A DNA stretch of 39,865 nucleotides from assembly GCA_003601605.1 (NCBI GenBank), contig PIXZ01000010.1, positions 1 through 39,865 of the forward strand, written 5' to 3'. The DNA is from Candidatus Bathyarchaeota archaeon. Lineage in GTDB: Archaea > Thermoproteota > Bathyarchaeia > Bathyarchaeales > Bathycorpusculaceae. Made by a program: the position numbers and the translations under genes. Positions 14,631 to 33,044 of this stretch are shown piece by piece. Every line of letters begins with the position of its first letter. Position 1 is the stretch's first letter. A model generated the notes under the pieces. The model was not told the DNA's origin, ran no database searches, and saw nothing but the letters and a program-made list of their open reading frames with translations.

Positions 14631-14758
14631 CGCCGGGGAAGGGATTCGAACCCTTGCGAGCCCGAAGGCCCACTGGCTTACTTGTTCATTTTCAGCCCCT
14701 TTTGTACAAAGCTTTTTGGATCTCGAGGCCAGCGCGTTAACCACTCCGCCACCCCGGC
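14631..14758 (-). tRNA. tRNA-Ser(CGA) with a ~43-nt intron in the anticodon loop
   Basis: Minus strand: acceptor GCCGGGG/CCCCGGC; D-arm GCGGAGTGGTTAACGC; anticodon stem CTGGC/GCCAG split by the insert after CTCGAG; variable arm TGGGCCTTCGGGCTCGC; T-arm AAGGGTTCGAATCCCTT. No encoded CCA. Confidence 0.9.
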
Positions 14759-19136: not shown

Positions 19137-19456
19137 GTGAAAACGAAAAATTGCAAAAAGCTGTCGATCTGGCAATTGCATCAGGATACCAGCTTAAAAA
19201 AGATGCTTTCGAATTTCTAACAACTGCAGCCGTAACAGCAGATCCAACAGAAATTATGAACAAAGCATTGCAAAAAATAGAAAGTTTAAAAGAAAAACCC
19301 CTTTTTATTGGTAGAGATACACTAGAAGAATTATTAGAAGAAGAACCAAAAATAGCAGAAGAAATCACTCCAACGCCTCAAACAGTTAAGATGGTAGAGG
19401 GAAAAAGAAAGTTTCAACCTTTCGCAAAAGAGGTTGAATCACATCAAAATAATTGA
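19133..19456 (+). CDS. polB: DNA polymerase D small subunit (DP1), N-terminal segment; frame ends early
   Basis: Overlaps the upstream stop (ATGA). Helical N-terminal domain and linker ending ...KRKFQPFAKEVES, which is where intact DP1 normally continues into the OB domain. Confidence 0.7.
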   Translation: MSENEKLQKAVDLAIASGYQLKKDAFEFLTTAAVTADPTEIMNKALQKIESLKEKPLFIGRDTLEELLEEEPKIAEEITPTPQTVKMVEGKRKFQPFAKEVESHQNN

Positions 19457-20666
19457 AGACCCTACTGACAAATTAAACACAAGTGGAACAATTGAAGACT
19501 ATCTAGGATATTTTAGAGATAGATTCAAGCGATTAGAAAAACTGTTAAGACAAAGGCTAGATGTAAGAGCCGCTGCATCAATTATTGACGCCTTAAAAGC
19601 CCCAAAAAACACACGATTAAAAATAATTTGCATGATAACAGAGAAAAGAGAATCAGAACGGAAAACCTTGTTAACAATCGAAGATCTGCATGCCAGCACT
19701 ATAGCCCTTATACCACAAAATGCAAGTGAAAAACTGCAAAAAAAAGCGCGCCTCCTTCTGCTGGACCAAGTTGTTTGTCTAAGTGTTATGAAAACGAGAA
19801 GCAATCTCTTAATAGTAGAAGACATCATTTTGCCGGATGTTGCCCAAAAAACTCCGAGAAAAGCGTCAGTACCAGTTTACGCCGTTCTCACATCAGACCT
19901 TCATGTTGGAAGCACAAAGTTTCAAAGAGAAGCATTTAACCGGTTCATATTATGGCTTAACGGCAAATATGGAAACGAAAGACTGAAAGAGATAGCAAGC
20001 CACGTAAAATATGTTCTTATCGCCGGAGATATAGTAGATGGAATAGGCGTTTACCCCAACCAGCTAAAAGAATTGGCAATAAAAGACATTTACGAACAAT
20101 ACAAGTTTGCAGCAAAATATTTGGAACAAATACCCGACTACATAGAAGTTGTAATTATTCCTGGAAACCATGATGCCCCCAGAAAAGCCCTACCCCAACC
20201 AGCAATATCAAAAGATTTTCTCACCCTACTACAGGAATCAAGAAACATTTACTCTCTTGGAAACCCATGCTTCTTAACCCTCCACGATGTAGAATTCTTA
20301 TTATACCACGGGCGTAGCCTAGACGACATCTTATCAACTGTTCCAGGCGCAAACCATTCCAACCCGGAAAAAGCAATGAAAGTTCTGCTACAAAGCCGCC
20401 ATCTAGCCCCTGTATACGGTGAAAAAACGCCCTTATCCCCCGAAGAGAAAGACTTTCTAGTTATTAATCGCGTTCCAGACGTTTTTCACGCTGGGCATGT
20501 TCACGTTTTAGGCTATACAAACTATAGAGGAGTTCTGCTAGTAAACTCTGGAGGTTGGCAGGAGCAAACAGATTATATGCAAAGGCTTGGATTAACGCCA
20601 ACACCGGGAAAAGTTCCAGTGGTAAACCTTCAAACTTTGGATGTTACAGTAATTTCTTTTTCTTAG
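19434..20666 (+). CDS. polB: DNA polymerase D small subunit (DP1), OB-fold and calcineurin-like PDE domains
   Basis: IKIIEDPTDKLNTSGTIEDYLGYFRDRFKRL, LTSDLHVGS, IAGDIVDGIGVYPNQ, IPGNHDAPRKALPQP, VFHAGHVHVLGY. Confidence 0.95.
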   Translation: MNHIKIIEDPTDKLNTSGTIEDYLGYFRDRFKRLEKLLRQRLDVRAAASIIDALKAPKNTRLKIICMITEKRESERKTLLTIEDLHASTIALIPQNASEKLQKKARLLLLDQVVCLSVMKTRSNLLIVEDIILPDVAQKTPRKASVPVYAVLTSDLHVGSTKFQREAFNRFILWLNGKYGNERLKEIASHVKYVLIAGDIVDGIGVYPNQLKELAIKDIYEQYKFAAKYLEQIPDYIEVVIIPGNHDAPRKALPQPAISKDFLTLLQESRNIYSLGNPCFLTLHDVEFLLYHGRSLDDILSTVPGANHSNPEKAMKVLLQSRHLAPVYGEKTPLSPEEKDFLVINRVPDVFHAGHVHVLGYTNYRGVLLVNSGGWQEQTDYMQRLGLTPTPGKVPVVNLQTLDVTVISFS

Positions 20667-21226: not shown

Positions 21227-22427
21227 TCAGTCGCCCAAGCCTACTATCATCAGAAAAAACGTTTCTAATAAGAGTACGGGATAACTCTAACCTAATCTTT
21301 TTAGTGCGACCATAACGCCCCATACTTACAACCTTAGCGTTCACCAACCCCATAGAATCCAGCTCATTAATCAAAGTGCTTAAACGACGCTGCGTCAAAG
21401 GAGCAACACCAAGTTCCCCGCAAAGCTCAGAATAAATCTCATAAATCTCACCCGTAATAGCCCGGTGCACTCCAGCCCTACTGAGATGATAAATGCTTAA
21501 AAGCACAAGCTTAGAATGCAAAGTCAGATTTTTTATTGCCTCAAAAACACGGTTATGTTCTATACAGCTCTCAGCCTCCCGAACGTGATCTTCCAAAACA
21601 ATTTGGGCACCCTTACGTTCTGCAACTTCACCAGCAACACGAAGCAGGTCCAAAGCTCGTCTGGCATCTCCATGCTCGGCCGCGGCTAAAGCTGCACAAA
21701 GGCTGACAGCAGCGTCTGATAATGCCCCTTCACAGAAGGCAATTCGTGCACGTTCAAGAAGAATGCTTTTCAGTTCGCTAGCATCGTAAGGTCTAAAAAC
21801 AATTTCTTCTTCGCTAAGAGTGCTAAAAACGCGTGGGTCGAGAAATTCTTTTAACCTTAGGTCGTTTGATATTCCAATAATAGATAATTTGCTGTTGCGT
21901 AAAGTCTCGTTTATTCTTGTCAACTCGTAAAGAAGCCCGTCACCACGAGCCTTTATTAGCACGTCAATTTCATCCAGAACAGCAATGAACAATATTTTTG
22001 AGGAATCTAAACCATTTTTAAACCTATCAAAAACTTCTCCAACAGATAATCCTGTAAAAGGTACAGACACCCCAATATTTTTACACAAACTCGAAAAAGT
22101 GCGATATTCAGACCCCACCATGCGACAGTTAACATAACAAAATCGCACTGGAGCGTCAAACTCCTTTGCCTTACTTTCAAGATAACTCAACACATATTTG
22201 GTAACAGCAGTCTTTCCTGTACCGGTTTTACCATACAAAAAGACGTTGGAACATCTTACGTTTTTAAGGACAGGGGCAACAATTTCACCTAATCGTCTAA
22301 TCTGTTCTTCCCGATGTGGCAACTTTTCAGGTAAATAATCATGGCGGAGAACCTCTCGGTCTTTGAAAATGTGTGAACTTGTTATTGACTTGTTAAATAT
22401 TTCCTCAAGTATGTTTCCATCAGTCAT
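21177..22427 (-). CDS. cdc6: Orc1/Cdc6 replication initiator (AAA+ with winged helix)
   Basis: VFLYGKTGTGKTAVTKYVL (Walker A), ILFIAVLDEIDVL (Walker B), ARRALDLLRVAGEVAE (sensor 2). ATG at 22427 is preceded by GGGAGGAG, favoured over the tracked 22499. Confidence 0.95.
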   Translation of the reverse strand: MTDGNILEEIFNKSITSSHIFKDREVLRHDYLPEKLPHREEQIRRLGEIVAPVLKNVRCSNVFLYGKTGTGKTAVTKYVLSYLESKAKEFDAPVRFCYVNCRMVGSEYRTFSSLCKNIGVSVPFTGLSVGEVFDRFKNGLDSSKILFIAVLDEIDVLIKARGDGLLYELTRINETLRNSKLSIIGISNDLRLKEFLDPRVFSTLSEEEIVFRPYDASELKSILLERARIAFCEGALSDAAVSLCAALAAAEHGDARRALDLLRVAGEVAERKGAQIVLEDHVREAESCIEHNRVFEAIKNLTLHSKLVLLSIYHLSRAGVHRAITGEIYEIYSELCGELGVAPLTQRRLSTLINELDSMGLVNAKVVSMGRYGRTKKIRLELSRTLIRNVFSDDSRLGRLIEYDAKSLSRSARSRS

Positions 22428-22546
22428 GAAAGCCTTCTCCTCCCTCTGATTTTTCAAGGGTAACACCTCATTTTCGTGTGGAGTAATAAAGCCTATCATA
22501 CAGAAAACTAAAGTTTAAGCACAAAATTCCTTTTAAAGCAAAGGCA

Positions 22547-22568
22547 CACCCCATCTTTTCTAGTGGAA
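22547..22568 (-). promoter_or_regulatory. ORB-like element 1
   Basis: Minus strand TTCCACTAGAAAAGATGGGGTG. Confidence 0.8.
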
Positions 22569-22600
22569 CTCCGTGTTTTTTCTTTAGAGAGAAATGTTGA

Positions 22601-22618
22601 TTTCTGTTGAAACAGAAA
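22601..22618. repeat. Perfect inverted repeat in the origin region
   Basis: TTTCTGTT-GA-AACAGAAA; both strands resemble a mini-ORB core (CTGTTGAAAC vs CAGTGGAAAC). Confidence 0.65.
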
Positions 22619-22723
22619 TATACTCCAGTAGGTAAGAACATTAAAGCTAATAAAACTGTTCTTGTATAGAAAACTAAACTTCTGCAATATCTTACTTTCA
22701 ACTGGCATTTGTTTGAAAAATAC

Positions 22724-22745
22724 TTCCACTGGAAATATAGGGGTC
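22724..22745 (+). promoter_or_regulatory. ORB-like element 2
   Basis: TTCCACTGGAAATATAGGGGTC: dyad core plus G-string. Confidence 0.85.
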
Positions 22746-22932
22746 TCCCACTTTTGCATATTTTTGTTAATTGTTTATCTCAGAGTTCTAATGCGCACAT
22801 AAACTAATTCTTTTAATATGCTCTATTGTTCACTTTTTGTTAAAATCTTGTGAAGTTGATTTAGTTATACAATTTTTCCTACGAGTTTTTCGGTAAAATT
22901 AACTTTTTTATGTCTTTTTTCTGTGAAATAAC

Positions 22933-22954
22933 CACCCCTACATTTCTACTGGAA
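22933..22954 (-). promoter_or_regulatory. ORB-like element 3
   Basis: Minus strand TTCCAGTAGAAATGTAGGGGTG. Confidence 0.85.
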
Positions 22955-23155
22955 AAAGAGGTATAATTCTAAACCAATTTCCTTTTTTGTTTTCAAGAAA
23001 ACGTGAAGCTTGTAAAACCTAAAACAGTGAAATTTTTGTTTCTTTTACCTTTTTAAGCATTCTAGTAAGCATTTTCATTTTACCTTTTAACCGCAACACC
23101 TATAACTTGTGAACTGTAAAATTGTGAACACTAGATAAAGGTGCATTCTGTTTAA

Positions 23156-23590
23156 ATGCCAGCGAGAAAAATGCGCATCGAGCTATTCGACAGCGAAGGC
23201 AACAAATATACTGTGTCCTTTGAAGGACAGATAACTAGAGATAAAGCTCTTCGTTTGTTAGATTTGGTGGAACTTTTAGGCGGGATGCCTGAAGGCGAAG
23301 CACTCGCTGTTGGTAACAACCCTTTAGCGGCACCTACTAACCTCTCTAAATACGACAAGGTTCGCATAGCAATTCAGAAGAATTTTCCGCTCGCATGGTT
23401 TTCTTCACGAGAAGCTCAAACAGTATACGAACAAGAGTTTAAAGAACCTATCAGTCTAAGCACCGTAGCAACTTACCTATCCAGAATGGCGAATAAAGGT
23501 CTTCTTCTAAAAACGGGCTCTTCAAACCGTTTGAAATATAGACTTGCACCAACATATACTCCAGCCATACTTAAACAAAAAACACCTTAA
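23156..23590 (+). CDS. Winged-helix protein flanking the origin
   Basis: RIAIQKNFPLAWFSSREAQTVYEQEFKEPISLSTVATYLSRMANKGLLLKTGSSNRLKYRL is wHTH-like; distinctive N-terminal beta-rich region (MRIELFDSEGNKYTVSFEGQITRDKALRLLDLVELL). Confidence 0.75.
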   Translation: MPARKMRIELFDSEGNKYTVSFEGQITRDKALRLLDLVELLGGMPEGEALAVGNNPLAAPTNLSKYDKVRIAIQKNFPLAWFSSREAQTVYEQEFKEPISLSTVATYLSRMANKGLLLKTGSSNRLKYRLAPTYTPAILKQKTP

Positions 23591-23594
23591 CCTA

Positions 23595-24311
23595 CTAGCT
23601 TTCCGCTTTTTTCAAAATCTTCTCCATTTCTTTCTTTATACGATACTTAAAAGGAATTTTATTTGTATCTCTTTCTAAATAGCCTTCCTCGTAAAGTTTT
23701 TTCATAAGCCTTGCCGTGTGCTCCCTGCTAAGCTTAATTCTTTCCTTTATTTCAGGAGCAGTTTTAGGCCCTTCAGAAGATAGCATTTCCAAAACTGTTA
23801 ACTCCGTCTCGGTCAAAGGTGCAATGGCCTTCTCCCTCTTTATTGGTATTACTGCCTCAATTTTTCCCTCTTGAACTGAAGGAAAGCTTACTGTTGCCTT
23901 CTCCTCCAACTCCGAAACTTTCACTGACAACTGCTTCTGTGATTTCGTAACATCACGCAGTTCCTTCTCAAACAAATCAAGCTTAGCCAACAAATCTTTT
24001 TTATCCTCTAAAATAGGCTCAACTTTGCTTTCCAAAGAACTCAATCGTTTTTCAATACTTGACATCTTCTCAGAAGCACTCCCGCTTTTGGCGGAAACAG
24101 CCTCTAACTTGTAAGCAATAGCTTCAACCTTTTCCGCTTCTTGCCTAAGCTGCCTGTTAAAACTTAAAATAATATCTTTAAGAACATCTCTCGCTTTCTC
24201 GTACTCCTTTTTAACACCACGGAGCTGCCTGTAATACTCAAGTGCAGCACCCACAGTTATCGCAGCTAAAACGCCTGTAAGAATTGCCATCACTTCAATC
24301 ATATAATACAC
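23595..24311 (-). CDS. Membrane-anchored coiled-coil protein with a C-terminal winged helix
   Basis: N-terminal TM (IEVMAILTGVLAAITVGAALEYY), long heptad-rich middle, C-terminal LTETELTVLEMLSSEGPKTAPEIKERIKLSREHTARLMKKLYEEGYLERD (MarR/TrmB-like wHTH). Confidence 0.75.
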   Translation of the reverse strand: MYYMIEVMAILTGVLAAITVGAALEYYRQLRGVKKEYEKARDVLKDIILSFNRQLRQEAEKVEAIAYKLEAVSAKSGSASEKMSSIEKRLSSLESKVEPILEDKKDLLAKLDLFEKELRDVTKSQKQLSVKVSELEEKATVSFPSVQEGKIEAVIPIKREKAIAPLTETELTVLEMLSSEGPKTAPEIKERIKLSREHTARLMKKLYEEGYLERDTNKIPFKYRIKKEMEKILKKAES

Positions 24312-29621: not shown

Positions 29622-32600
29622 TTGAACAACAACAATATGAGCGAAGCCTATCAGCAATACGTGAAAACTCTGGAAAAAAAGCTTGAACAATTATATGGTA
29701 TAAGCGAAGAAGCTAGGAAAAAGGGATTAGACCCCACGCTAACAACGGAATGTAGAATCGCTAAAGACTTGGCAGATTTAGTTGAAGGCTTGGTGGGACC
29801 GAAAGGCGTTGCAGAAAGCATTAGAGAATTGAGTGACAAACTCTCAAGAGAAGAACTTGCTTTTAAAATAGCGGAAGAAATTGTTTACGGCAAATTTGGA
29901 CATATGGATGAGGAAAAGGCTGCTGAACAAGCCATACGCACTTCTCTCGCTATCTTAACTGAGGGGCTTACAGCTGCTCCGCTTCAAGGAGTAGCCAGAG
30001 TAAAAATTAAAACTAATCGTGACCGAACGCGGTATCTCGCCATCTATTTTGCTGGTCCCATTAGGTCGGCTGGAGGAACAGATCAGGCTTTAACTTTGGT
30101 TGTGGGCGACTTTGTTAGGCGGTTGTTGGGTCTTGACCGTTACAAGCCTACAGAAGAGGAGATTTCGCGTTTTATTGAGGAGATGCGGCTTTATGAACGT
30201 GCTGTTGGACGTTTTCAATATCATATTTCAGATGAGGAGCTTAGAAAGGCTCTCGAGTGGCTTCCTGTAGAGGTTACTGGCACAGAATCAAACCCTGTTG
30301 AAGTTTCTTCTTATAGAAATCTGCCAAGGATTGAAACTAACCGTGTTAGAGGGGGTGCTCTTCGTGTTGTAAATGACGGGGTTGTTGGGCGTGCTCCAAA
30401 AGTTTATGCAATAATTGAAAGGCTTAAGATTCAAGGTTGGGATTGGCTTAAAGAGTTTCGCCAAAAGTCTGCACACAAGTCTGCTGGCTTTATGGACGAA
30501 GTTATTGCAGGACGCCCAATCTTTTCTTTTCCGTCAAGACGTGGAGGCTTCCGTCTACGTTATGGTAGAGCCCGAAACACTGGTTTGGCTGCTGTGGGTG
30601 TTCATCCAGCAACTATGCTTGTGCTTCAAGGTTTTGTGGCGGCGGGCACACAATTACGTTTGGAGCTTCCCGGGAAAGGTGGAATAGCTGTTCCTGTTGA
30701 TAGTTTAGAACCTCCTATAGTTCGTTTGAAGAACGGGTCTGTGGTTCGTGTGTCTGTGGAAAACTTTGGTGGGTTGAAGGATGGTATAGAAAAGATTTTG
30801 TTTTTAGGCGATATTTTGATTAGCTTTGGCGATTTTCTCTATAATAGTAAGCCTCTTTCACCTTCTGGGTATGTGGAAGAGTGGTGGGCTGAAGATTTAA
30901 GAAAAAGCATTTTTGAAAAGTTTGGTGGAAACCTTGCGAAGGCGTCTGAAGCAACGCAAATTCCAATCGGCAAGTTAGAAGAATTTTTGAAGAACCCGTT
31001 TGTTTACAAGCCAAGCCTTAAAGAAGCCATAACAATATCTTCATTGTTGCATATCCCGCTTCACCCATCCTATACCTTTTTCTGGTCTTTCCTCCAGTCA
31101 ACAGACAATCTGGAATTACTTAAAAAATGGCTTAACAGTGCAAAAGTATCGCTGGATGGCAATATCGCTTACAATGTTGTTGGAGACCTTGTGGCAGAAG
31201 TGAAAGAGGCTTTAGAAACAATATGTTTGCCTCATAGCGTGACTGATGGGAAAATTGTTGTTAAGGGCGATGATGCTGGAGCTTTTGCATTTTCCTTAGG
31301 ATATGGACGCGAAACAAGCGTAGACTTTTCCTCAGTTTCTTCTGTTTTAGAGGCTGTTAGTTTGCTTTCTGGTGTAGAGGTTAAAGAAAAAGCGCCAACT
31401 CTTGTGGGTGCGCGTATGGGTAGACCGGAAAAGGCTAAAAGGCGTGAAATGAAGCCTTTGGTTCACGTTCTCTTTCCGGTGGGTTTGGCTGGGGGTTCTC
31501 ATAGGGATGTTGTTGAGGCAGCTAAGAAAGAGAGGGTTTTTGTGGAAATTGTTAAACGGAAATGTCCCAACTGTAATACGGTTACTTTTAGCGTTAAATG
31601 TCCCGCTTGTGGTTCTGAGACGGTTTTTGAGAGAACTTGTCCTCGCTGTGGTCGAATACAAAACAGTGAAGGTGTATGTCCAGTATGCAAGGTGCCGGTT
31701 GTCTGCTATCAGAAGCAGTTTGTAAACTTTAAAGAAATGCTTGGGAAAGTATGCAAAAATTTGAACGTGCCCATTCCTAAACTCTTGAAAGGCGTCAAAG
31801 GTTTGACGAATGAAAAGAAGATTCCAGAAATTCTGGAAAAAGGCGTTTTACGTGCAAAATACAATCTATCAATATATAAGGATGGTACAATCCGTTTTGA
31901 CGCTACAAACGCTCCATTAACTCATTTTAAACCATCAGAAATCGGAGTTCCCGTTGAAAAGCTTGCAGAGCTTGGTTATACCCATGATATTGACGGCGAA
32001 CCCTTGACACGTGAAAGCCAAGTTTGCGAACTAAAGATTCAAGACGTTATTATCCCCGTGAAATGTGCCCAATACTTTGTTCGTGTTGCAAACTTTCTTG
32101 ACGAACTGCTGGAGAAAGTGTATGGGCTACCATCCTATTACAATGTTAAGAAAATTGAAGACCTTGTGGGGCACATCGTTGTAGGTTTAGCTCCTCACAC
32201 TTCAGTCGGCATTTTAGGAAGAATAATCGGTTTTACAAGCTTGAACGTGTGTTATGCGCATCCTATTTGGCACTCTGCAAAGCGAAGAGACTGTGACGGG
32301 GACGAAGACACGTTAATGCTTGCTTTAGACACGCTCATCAACTTTTCCCGTGAATATTTGCCCGCCCAGATAGGTGGAATAATGGATGCTCCACTGCTTT
32401 TAATACCAGTGGTTAAAACTATGGAGGTGCAGAGGCAAGCACATGATGTGGACGTTGCAAAAGAATACCCTTTAGAGTTTTATGAAAAGACATGGGAGAA
32501 CGCGGAAGCCAAAACTGTAAGCAGTCTTGTAGATATTATTGAGTATAGGCTTGGTTCAGAAGCACAGTTTGAAGGCTTCCACTTTACGACGCCGGTTTCT

Positions 32601-33044
32601 GACATCAATATGGGTAATGCGGAAAGTTCTTACAAACGGTTAAAGACGATGATTGACAAGCTTAACAGTCAGATGGAATTGGCGGAAAAAATAGAGGCTG
32701 TAGACGCTAAACATGTTGCCTTAAAGGTTTTAACAACTCATTTTATCCGTGACATTTCTGGAAACCTTCGTGCCTTTTCTACACAAAGCTTCAGATGTAA
32801 ATCTTGCAACAAACGTTTTAGAAGACTGCCTCTTCGCGGTTCATGCCCTTTCTGTAAGGGTGAATTAACCCTCACGGTTTATCGGGGTGGAATTGAAAAG
32901 TATTTGGAGGCAGCCCAGCGTTTGGTTGAAAAGTATGAGTTGCCGCAATACTATATTCAGAGGATTATGCTTGTAAAAGAAGAAATTGACGCTTTGTTTG
33001 AAGGGAAAAAGCCGAAGCAAATCAGTTTGATGGACTTTGCTTAA
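29622..33044 (+). CDS. polC: DNA polymerase D large subunit (DP2), intein-less
   Basis: KTNRDRTRYLAIYFAGPIRSAGGTDQAL, HPIWHSAKRRDCDGDEDTLML catalytic region, multiple zinc CxxC motifs, C-terminal PIP-like QISLMDFA. The start may be the ATG at 29637. Confidence 0.97.
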   Translation: MNNNNMSEAYQQYVKTLEKKLEQLYGISEEARKKGLDPTLTTECRIAKDLADLVEGLVGPKGVAESIRELSDKLSREELAFKIAEEIVYGKFGHMDEEKAAEQAIRTSLAILTEGLTAAPLQGVARVKIKTNRDRTRYLAIYFAGPIRSAGGTDQALTLVVGDFVRRLLGLDRYKPTEEEISRFIEEMRLYERAVGRFQYHISDEELRKALEWLPVEVTGTESNPVEVSSYRNLPRIETNRVRGGALRVVNDGVVGRAPKVYAIIERLKIQGWDWLKEFRQKSAHKSAGFMDEVIAGRPIFSFPSRRGGFRLRYGRARNTGLAAVGVHPATMLVLQGFVAAGTQLRLELPGKGGIAVPVDSLEPPIVRLKNGSVVRVSVENFGGLKDGIEKILFLGDILISFGDFLYNSKPLSPSGYVEEWWAEDLRKSIFEKFGGNLAKASEATQIPIGKLEEFLKNPFVYKPSLKEAITISSLLHIPLHPSYTFFWSFLQSTDNLELLKKWLNSAKVSLDGNIAYNVVGDLVAEVKEALETICLPHSVTDGKIVVKGDDAGAFAFSLGYGRETSVDFSSVSSVLEAVSLLSGVEVKEKAPTLVGARMGRPEKAKRREMKPLVHVLFPVGLAGGSHRDVVEAAKKERVFVEIVKRKCPNCNTVTFSVKCPACGSETVFERTCPRCGRIQNSEGVCPVCKVPVVCYQKQFVNFKEMLGKVCKNLNVPIPKLLKGVKGLTNEKKIPEILEKGVLRAKYNLSIYKDGTIRFDATNAPLTHFKPSEIGVPVEKLAELGYTHDIDGEPLTRESQVCELKIQDVIIPVKCAQYFVRVANFLDELLEKVYGLPSYYNVKKIEDLVGHIVVGLAPHTSVGILGRIIGFTSLNVCYAHPIWHSAKRRDCDGDEDTLMLALDTLINFSREYLPAQIGGIMDAPLLLIPVVKTMEVQRQAHDVDVAKEYPLEFYEKTWENAEAKTVSSLVDIIEYRLGSEAQFEGFHFTTPVSDINMGNAESSYKRLKTMIDKLNSQMELAEKIEAVDAKHVALKVLTTHFIRDISGNLRAFSTQSFRCKSCNKRFRRLPLRGSCPFCKGELTLTVYRGGIEKYLEAAQRLVEKYELPQYYIQRIMLVKEEIDALFEGKKPKQISLMDFA

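Follow-up and report, generated by a model that had tools for sequence, protein, structure and literature searches.

A conserved array of origin recognition boxes beside orc1-1 as the probable chromosomal replication origin of Bathyarchaeia

The locus described here is very probably a chromosomal origin of the oriC1 type, belonging to an archaeon of the Bathyarchaeia. It lies within a contig stretch of 39,865 nucleotides (the window), in which three 22-bp elements of the origin recognition box (ORB) type stand beside an orc1-1/cdc6 gene. Two of them, ORB-A and ORB-B, are inverted and face one another across a 187-bp AT-rich stretch (Table 1). The trio recurs with unchanged order and orientation at 60 of 64 Bathyarchaeia orc1 loci, where it is usually accompanied by a conserved box of another kind and by a divergently transcribed gene for a predicted winged-helix protein. 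Our search of the literature, which was not exhaustive, found no description of a Bathyarchaeia origin.

Table 1. Features of the proposed origin region, in coordinates of the window
Feature	Position	Strand	Basis or description
orc1-1/cdc6 initiator gene, 416 aa	21177..22427	-	Pfam, NCBIfam and PDB relatives
Degenerate fourth ORB-like element near the orc1 start	22463..22483	-	CTCCACACGAAAATGAGGTGT, 3 mismatches
Conserved block 5' of orc1, TTTAGTTTTCTGTATGATAGGCTTTATT	22485..22512	-	Conserved columns in a 59-sequence alignment
ORB-C, nearest to orc1	22547..22568	-	22-mer; ORB motif match and conservation in relatives
ORB-B	22724..22745	+	22-mer; ORB motif match and conservation in relatives
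AT-rich segment between the facing ORB-A and ORB-B, candidate unwinding element	22746..22932		73.8% A+T
Non-ORB box, TTCACA-N5-TTAACA-N3-AGTGAA	22829..22854	-	Centre 91.5 bp from ORB-A
ORB-A, farthest from orc1, facing ORB-B	22933..22954	-	22-mer; ORB motif match and conservation
TATA-like CTATAA of the divergent gene	23100..23105	+	Sequence reading; conserved in relatives
Two TTGTGAA half-sites, period 15, just 3' of CTATAA	23107..23128	+	
Divergent winged-helix protein P0002, 144 aa, no named family	23156..23590	+	Conserved place, predicted winged-helix fold

The ORB array and its initiator gene

The three 22-mers occur with 0 mismatches at exactly the coordinates and on the strands that an earlier note on this DNA had assigned to them, and a search of the window returned no further 22-mer site at up to 3 mismatches. 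Dinucleotide-shuffled windows gave a mean of 0.03 matches, and none of 100 shuffles reached three. Moreover, these are the only three sites in the 1.09-Mb assembly to which the window belongs (70 contigs, 80% complete), so the 22-mer does not have the frequent occurrence elsewhere that the earlier note had named as a reason to abandon its reading. With a looser ORB pattern, the next-best sites of the whole assembly have 2 mismatches and are background-like. The identification of the elements as ORBs is borne out by the 'Common' archaeal ORB motif of Ori-Finder 2 (PMC4164010), from which the 22-mers depart by 3, 1 and 2 mismatches, with 0.02 expected by chance; they are also similar to the archaeal consensus CTTCCAGTGGAAACGAAAGGGGT quoted in PMC4153887. 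Against a criterion of at least two ORBs matching TCCA[CG]T[TG]GAAA[TC][GA]AAGGGGT, the window has three. Judging from their sequence, we take the three repeats to be true binding motifs of a chromosomal replication origin of archaeal type. A degenerate fourth ORB-like site near the orc1 start was absent from the earlier note; at the corresponding place, near -55, 31 of 60 loci carry an element within 2 mismatches of TTCCANNNGAAANNNNGGNGT, as against 0.07% of shuffles.

By its database relationships, the neighbouring gene product is an initiator of the Orc1-1 type. It matches Pfam Cdc6_C (5.9e-30) and Cdc6_lid as well as the NCBIfam ORC1-type DNA replication protein (1.3e-151), and its closest PDB relatives, 2qby_A (Cdc6 homolog 1) and 2v1u_A, are related over about 380 residues each, including the C-terminal winged helix. 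The alignments are consistent with the start proposed earlier at 22427 on the minus strand, and the conserved block just upstream of it is probably the orc1 promoter. The nearest Orc1 among relatives has 85% identity, and the 52 named relatives are recorded as Bathyarchaeota, Bathyarchaeum or Bathycorpusculum, with one record labelled 'Crenarchaeota archaeon'. A second orc1 paralogue lies on a separate contig of 14.5 kb, which has no ORB-like site at up to 3 mismatches. The PolD subunits DP1 (19434-20666, plus strand) and DP2 (29622-33044, plus strand) are encoded on both sides of the origin, within 10 kb, a placement largely kept in relatives. Farther away, at 14631-14758 on the minus strand, is a tRNA missed by ARAGORN and matched by Rfam at 51.4 bits, which probably contains an intron, since 128 bases are matched against a 71-position model.

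The array was compared across 64 Bathyarchaeia orc1-1 loci, a few of them representing the same genome twice. At the 60 loci with the trio, ORB-A lies on the orc1 strand, ORB-B is reversed and ORB-C is again on the orc1 strand, at median positions of -605, -355 and -171 from the start of the orc1 match. Spacing is 249 ± 27 bp from A to B and 184 ± 9 bp from B to C. The earlier note had regarded absence of the 22-mer from syntenic orc1 loci as fatal to its proposal, and the comparison came out the other way. Among the four remaining loci, two (L061 and L037) end at a contig edge, bin345 (L084) has ORB-B and ORB-C only, and L095 (HyVt-197), the most divergent orc1 locus, has its ORBs differently arranged. 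Clustered at 80% DNA identity, the upstream regions of the 60 loci yield 54 clusters and, in the alignment, the DNA between the elements shows little conservation over much of its length, which argues that the ORBs are held by selection and not by recent descent alone.

In 12 relatives the ORB cluster was found at orc1-1, no second cluster was found, and other one-mismatch matches were about as frequent as those of a reversed-pattern control. In the f18 genomes searched with the ORB pattern, the orc1 locus gave no match at up to 1 mismatch, and their ORBs are thus more diverged or different. In 12 genomes lacking the winged-helix protein, the matches of the ORB search were mostly background.

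A conserved box in the AT-rich segment and a divergent winged-helix gene

The earlier note had described the DNA between the facing ORBs as very AT-rich, and this description holds: its A+T content compares with 60.1% for the window as a whole, and only 0.05% of 187-bp windows are equally rich. Alignment of the loci reveals in this segment a conserved and apparently hitherto undescribed box of the general form TTCACA-N4/5-TTCACA-N1-5-TGTGAA. A candidate is found in 59 of 60 loci, and 55 of 60 have one at up to 3 mismatches, as against 1 of 300 shuffled gaps; the B-C gaps of the loci contain no box, and L095 has none at up to 4 mismatches. The copy in the window is the best site of its assembly (1 mismatch), the next best having 3. 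Phylum-wide, the form with a 5-base gap occurs at background level, a pattern that also misses loci with a 4-base gap. Measured to its centre, the box keeps 92.1 ± 0.6 bp from ORB-A's inner edge (59 loci), whereas its distance to ORB-B is 127 ± 24 bp. The box is thus fixed to ORB-A, in an A-B gap that ranges from about 122 to 249 bp across loci. A position midway between A and B, which is true of the window by chance, was rejected, the mean fraction over the loci being 0.43. Between ORB-B and ORB-C, at 22607-22683, there are more conserved blocks, TTTAGTTTTCTATACAAGAA and GAGTATATTTCT, the first of which is similar to the block upstream of orc1.

Across the origin from orc1, and divergent from it, lies the gene for P0002. 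Both this conserved gene and the box inside the AT-rich segment had been missed by the earlier note. A homologue is divergent from orc1 in 45 of the 48 named loci; of the exceptions, one is a truncated locus, bin345 lacks a homologue, and the distant homologue of L095 is arranged in tandem with orc1. P0002 scores above the cut-off of no model in Pfam or NCBIfam, and its similarities are weak ones to winged-helix proteins. Structure prediction (mean pLDDT 74, pTM 0.47) gives a winged helix at residues 65-130, preceded by a less certain beta-hairpin-helix part. With this model, Foldseek returned modest matches, mostly to winged-helix DNA-binding proteins and none at E ≤ 0.001. A profile of this protein family has matches in 237 of 400 genomes from the phylum. 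The place beside orc1 extends to other taxonomic families: outside that of the window's genome, 39 of 59 genomes have the gene divergent from orc1-1 at a distance of 525-907 bp, and six more may have the same arrangement across the point where a circular record begins; in families f24, f28 and f39 it is not adjacent to orc1-1.

The next gene, at 23595-24311 on the minus strand, encodes a protein with a coiled-coil-like N-terminus (weak SMC similarity) and a MarR/Lrs14-like winged helix. Of 48 loci, 42 have a homologue close to the origin, and in bin345 the homologue directly adjoins orc1.

The leader of the P0002 gene carries the TTCACA half-sites of the box in reverse-complement form. They follow the CTATAA sequence, presumably a promoter element of this gene, and two TGTGAA copies 14-16 bp apart are present in 30 of 46 such leaders but in none of 2300 shuffles. 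The shared half-sites, the position and the conserved neighbourhood suggest a link between box and protein, and we tentatively hypothesize that P0002 binds the box; together, the two suggest an additional factor at the origin. The combined absence of the winged-helix protein, the box and ORB-A from bin345 was considered as evidence of co-loss and set aside: with the next gene now beside orc1, it may be one contiguous deletion (22 kb of that bin345 sequence are masked).

We regard it as possible rather than probable that the box serves the divergent gene as a distal operator and plays no part in replication, a reading that concerns the box only and is compatible with the locus being an origin. 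In its favour are the same half-sites in the gene's leader and the rather uniform spacing between ORB-A and the gene start (198 ± 4 bp). However, the distance from the box to ORB-A, constant within 0.6 bp, is tighter than that spacing, and the box lies about 300 bp upstream of the gene start, inside the AT-rich segment.

Strand bias and other readings of the locus

The earlier note had proposed that a skew extremum be sought here. Among relatives, such an extremum was seen near the locus in G064 but not in bin345. G064 is a single 2.73-Mb contig, about half of whose length was sampled. Its cumulative gene-orientation, T-A, GC and GC3 curves peak or bottom out at 2.16-2.24 Mb, close by the ORBs (2.272 Mb), and reach the other extremum at 0.84-1.12 Mb, a range that includes the antipode of the ORBs (0.906 Mb; p 0.0006-0.01, block permutation). 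The T-A signal survives regression on gene orientation, with 0 of 5000 permutations as high, but the GC signal is not significant after the same regression (p 0.09). In gene co-directionality, 7 of 137 tested positions rank above the actual one, the best six lying at 2.06-2.24 Mb. In bin345 (1.09 Mb), whose locus has only two recognisable ORBs, skew is not significant (p 0.43-0.52). Support from skew is that of one genome and is not general.

It could also be argued that the elements are mainly Orc1 operators for orc1 and the divergent gene, and that replication begins elsewhere or by recombination. The array does sit between two divergent genes, with a degenerate ORB near the orc1 start, and some archaea are described as replicating without an origin or Cdc6 (PMC5663688). 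We nevertheless consider this reading very unlikely, as ORB-A and ORB-B are some 200-500 bp from either gene start and are turned towards one another over the most AT-rich segment, keeping the ORB-DUE-ORB layout of Sulfolobus, and as the strand-bias extremum of G064 is near the locus; moreover, autocontrol by Orc1 and origin function are mutually compatible. That the locus is a former origin, now dormant and retained by its linkage to orc1 while another origin works, would fit with the dormant origins reported in haloarchaea (PMC4595724) and with the roughly 20% of the genome missing from the assembly, but is highly improbable given the constraint on sequence and spacing across 54 divergent locus clusters and the second ORB cluster seen in 0 of 12 relatives searched. 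A further origin may lie in the missing 20% of the genome.

The simplest reading of the sequence evidence is thus an oriC1-type origin, as which we class the locus as a whole. We infer that it would be active, with Orc1 binding, MCM loading, unwinding and initiation taking place here. In the Sulfolobus model outlined in PMC12141716, Orc1-1 sits on ORBs that point towards each other and guides MCM to the DNA between them. By analogy, Orc1-1 would bind the facing ORB-A and ORB-B and recruit two MCM hexamers into the AT-rich segment between them, where unwinding would occur and from where forks would depart both ways. Extra affinity, or control of orc1 by its own product, could come from ORB-C and from the degenerate ORB-like site close to the gene's start.

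Relation to known origins and significance

As Sulfolobus oriC1 is presented in PMC12141716, the likeness extends to the ORB motif with its G-string, the inverted ORBs across an AT-rich segment, the adjacent orc1-1 and the presence of a non-ORB element between the facing ORBs. The region between the ORBs differs in length, about 122-249 bp in the present loci, where Sulfolobus has an ORB3-DUE-ORB2 region of 130 bp, and Bathyarchaeia have another kind of conserved box together with a conserved divergent winged-helix gene. The Sulfolobus pair of ucm and its protein UBP is similar in plan, with a second conserved element in the unwinding segment and a small DNA-binding protein proposed for it. 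However, UBP binds DNA through beta-hairpins and forms a strand-swapped dimer, whereas P0002 is a predicted winged helix encoded beside the origin; UBP has more than 300 genomic sites, whereas the box described here, counted as a whole, is essentially unique in its genome. UBP is, according to PMC12141716, a relatively recent acquisition of Desulfurococcales and Sulfolobales. Because fold, site number and phyletic range are unlike, we classify neither the box as a ucm nor the protein as UBP. Another winged-helix gene beside an origin is that of WhiP, the initiator of Sulfolobus oriC3 (PMC4010727; the name is expanded in PMC4164010); compared by description, this is a further likeness, but the Bathyarchaeia origin is of the ORB/Orc1 type.

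With some reserve, we could speculate that the winged-helix protein has long accompanied Orc1-1 in this phylum; it would bind the box at its fixed distance from ORB-A, control its own gene through the half-sites and aid helicase loading or release, a role like that proposed for Sulfolobus UBP with an unrelated fold. In PMC12141716 the authors ask whether analogous proteins act at the origins of more divergent archaea. The layout of the Bathyarchaeia locus offers a test bed for this question as well as a ready definition of oriC for an uncultured class. A concrete candidate is the conserved P0002 gene, which belongs to no named family and neighbours orc1-1 in at least 39 of the 59 other genomes.
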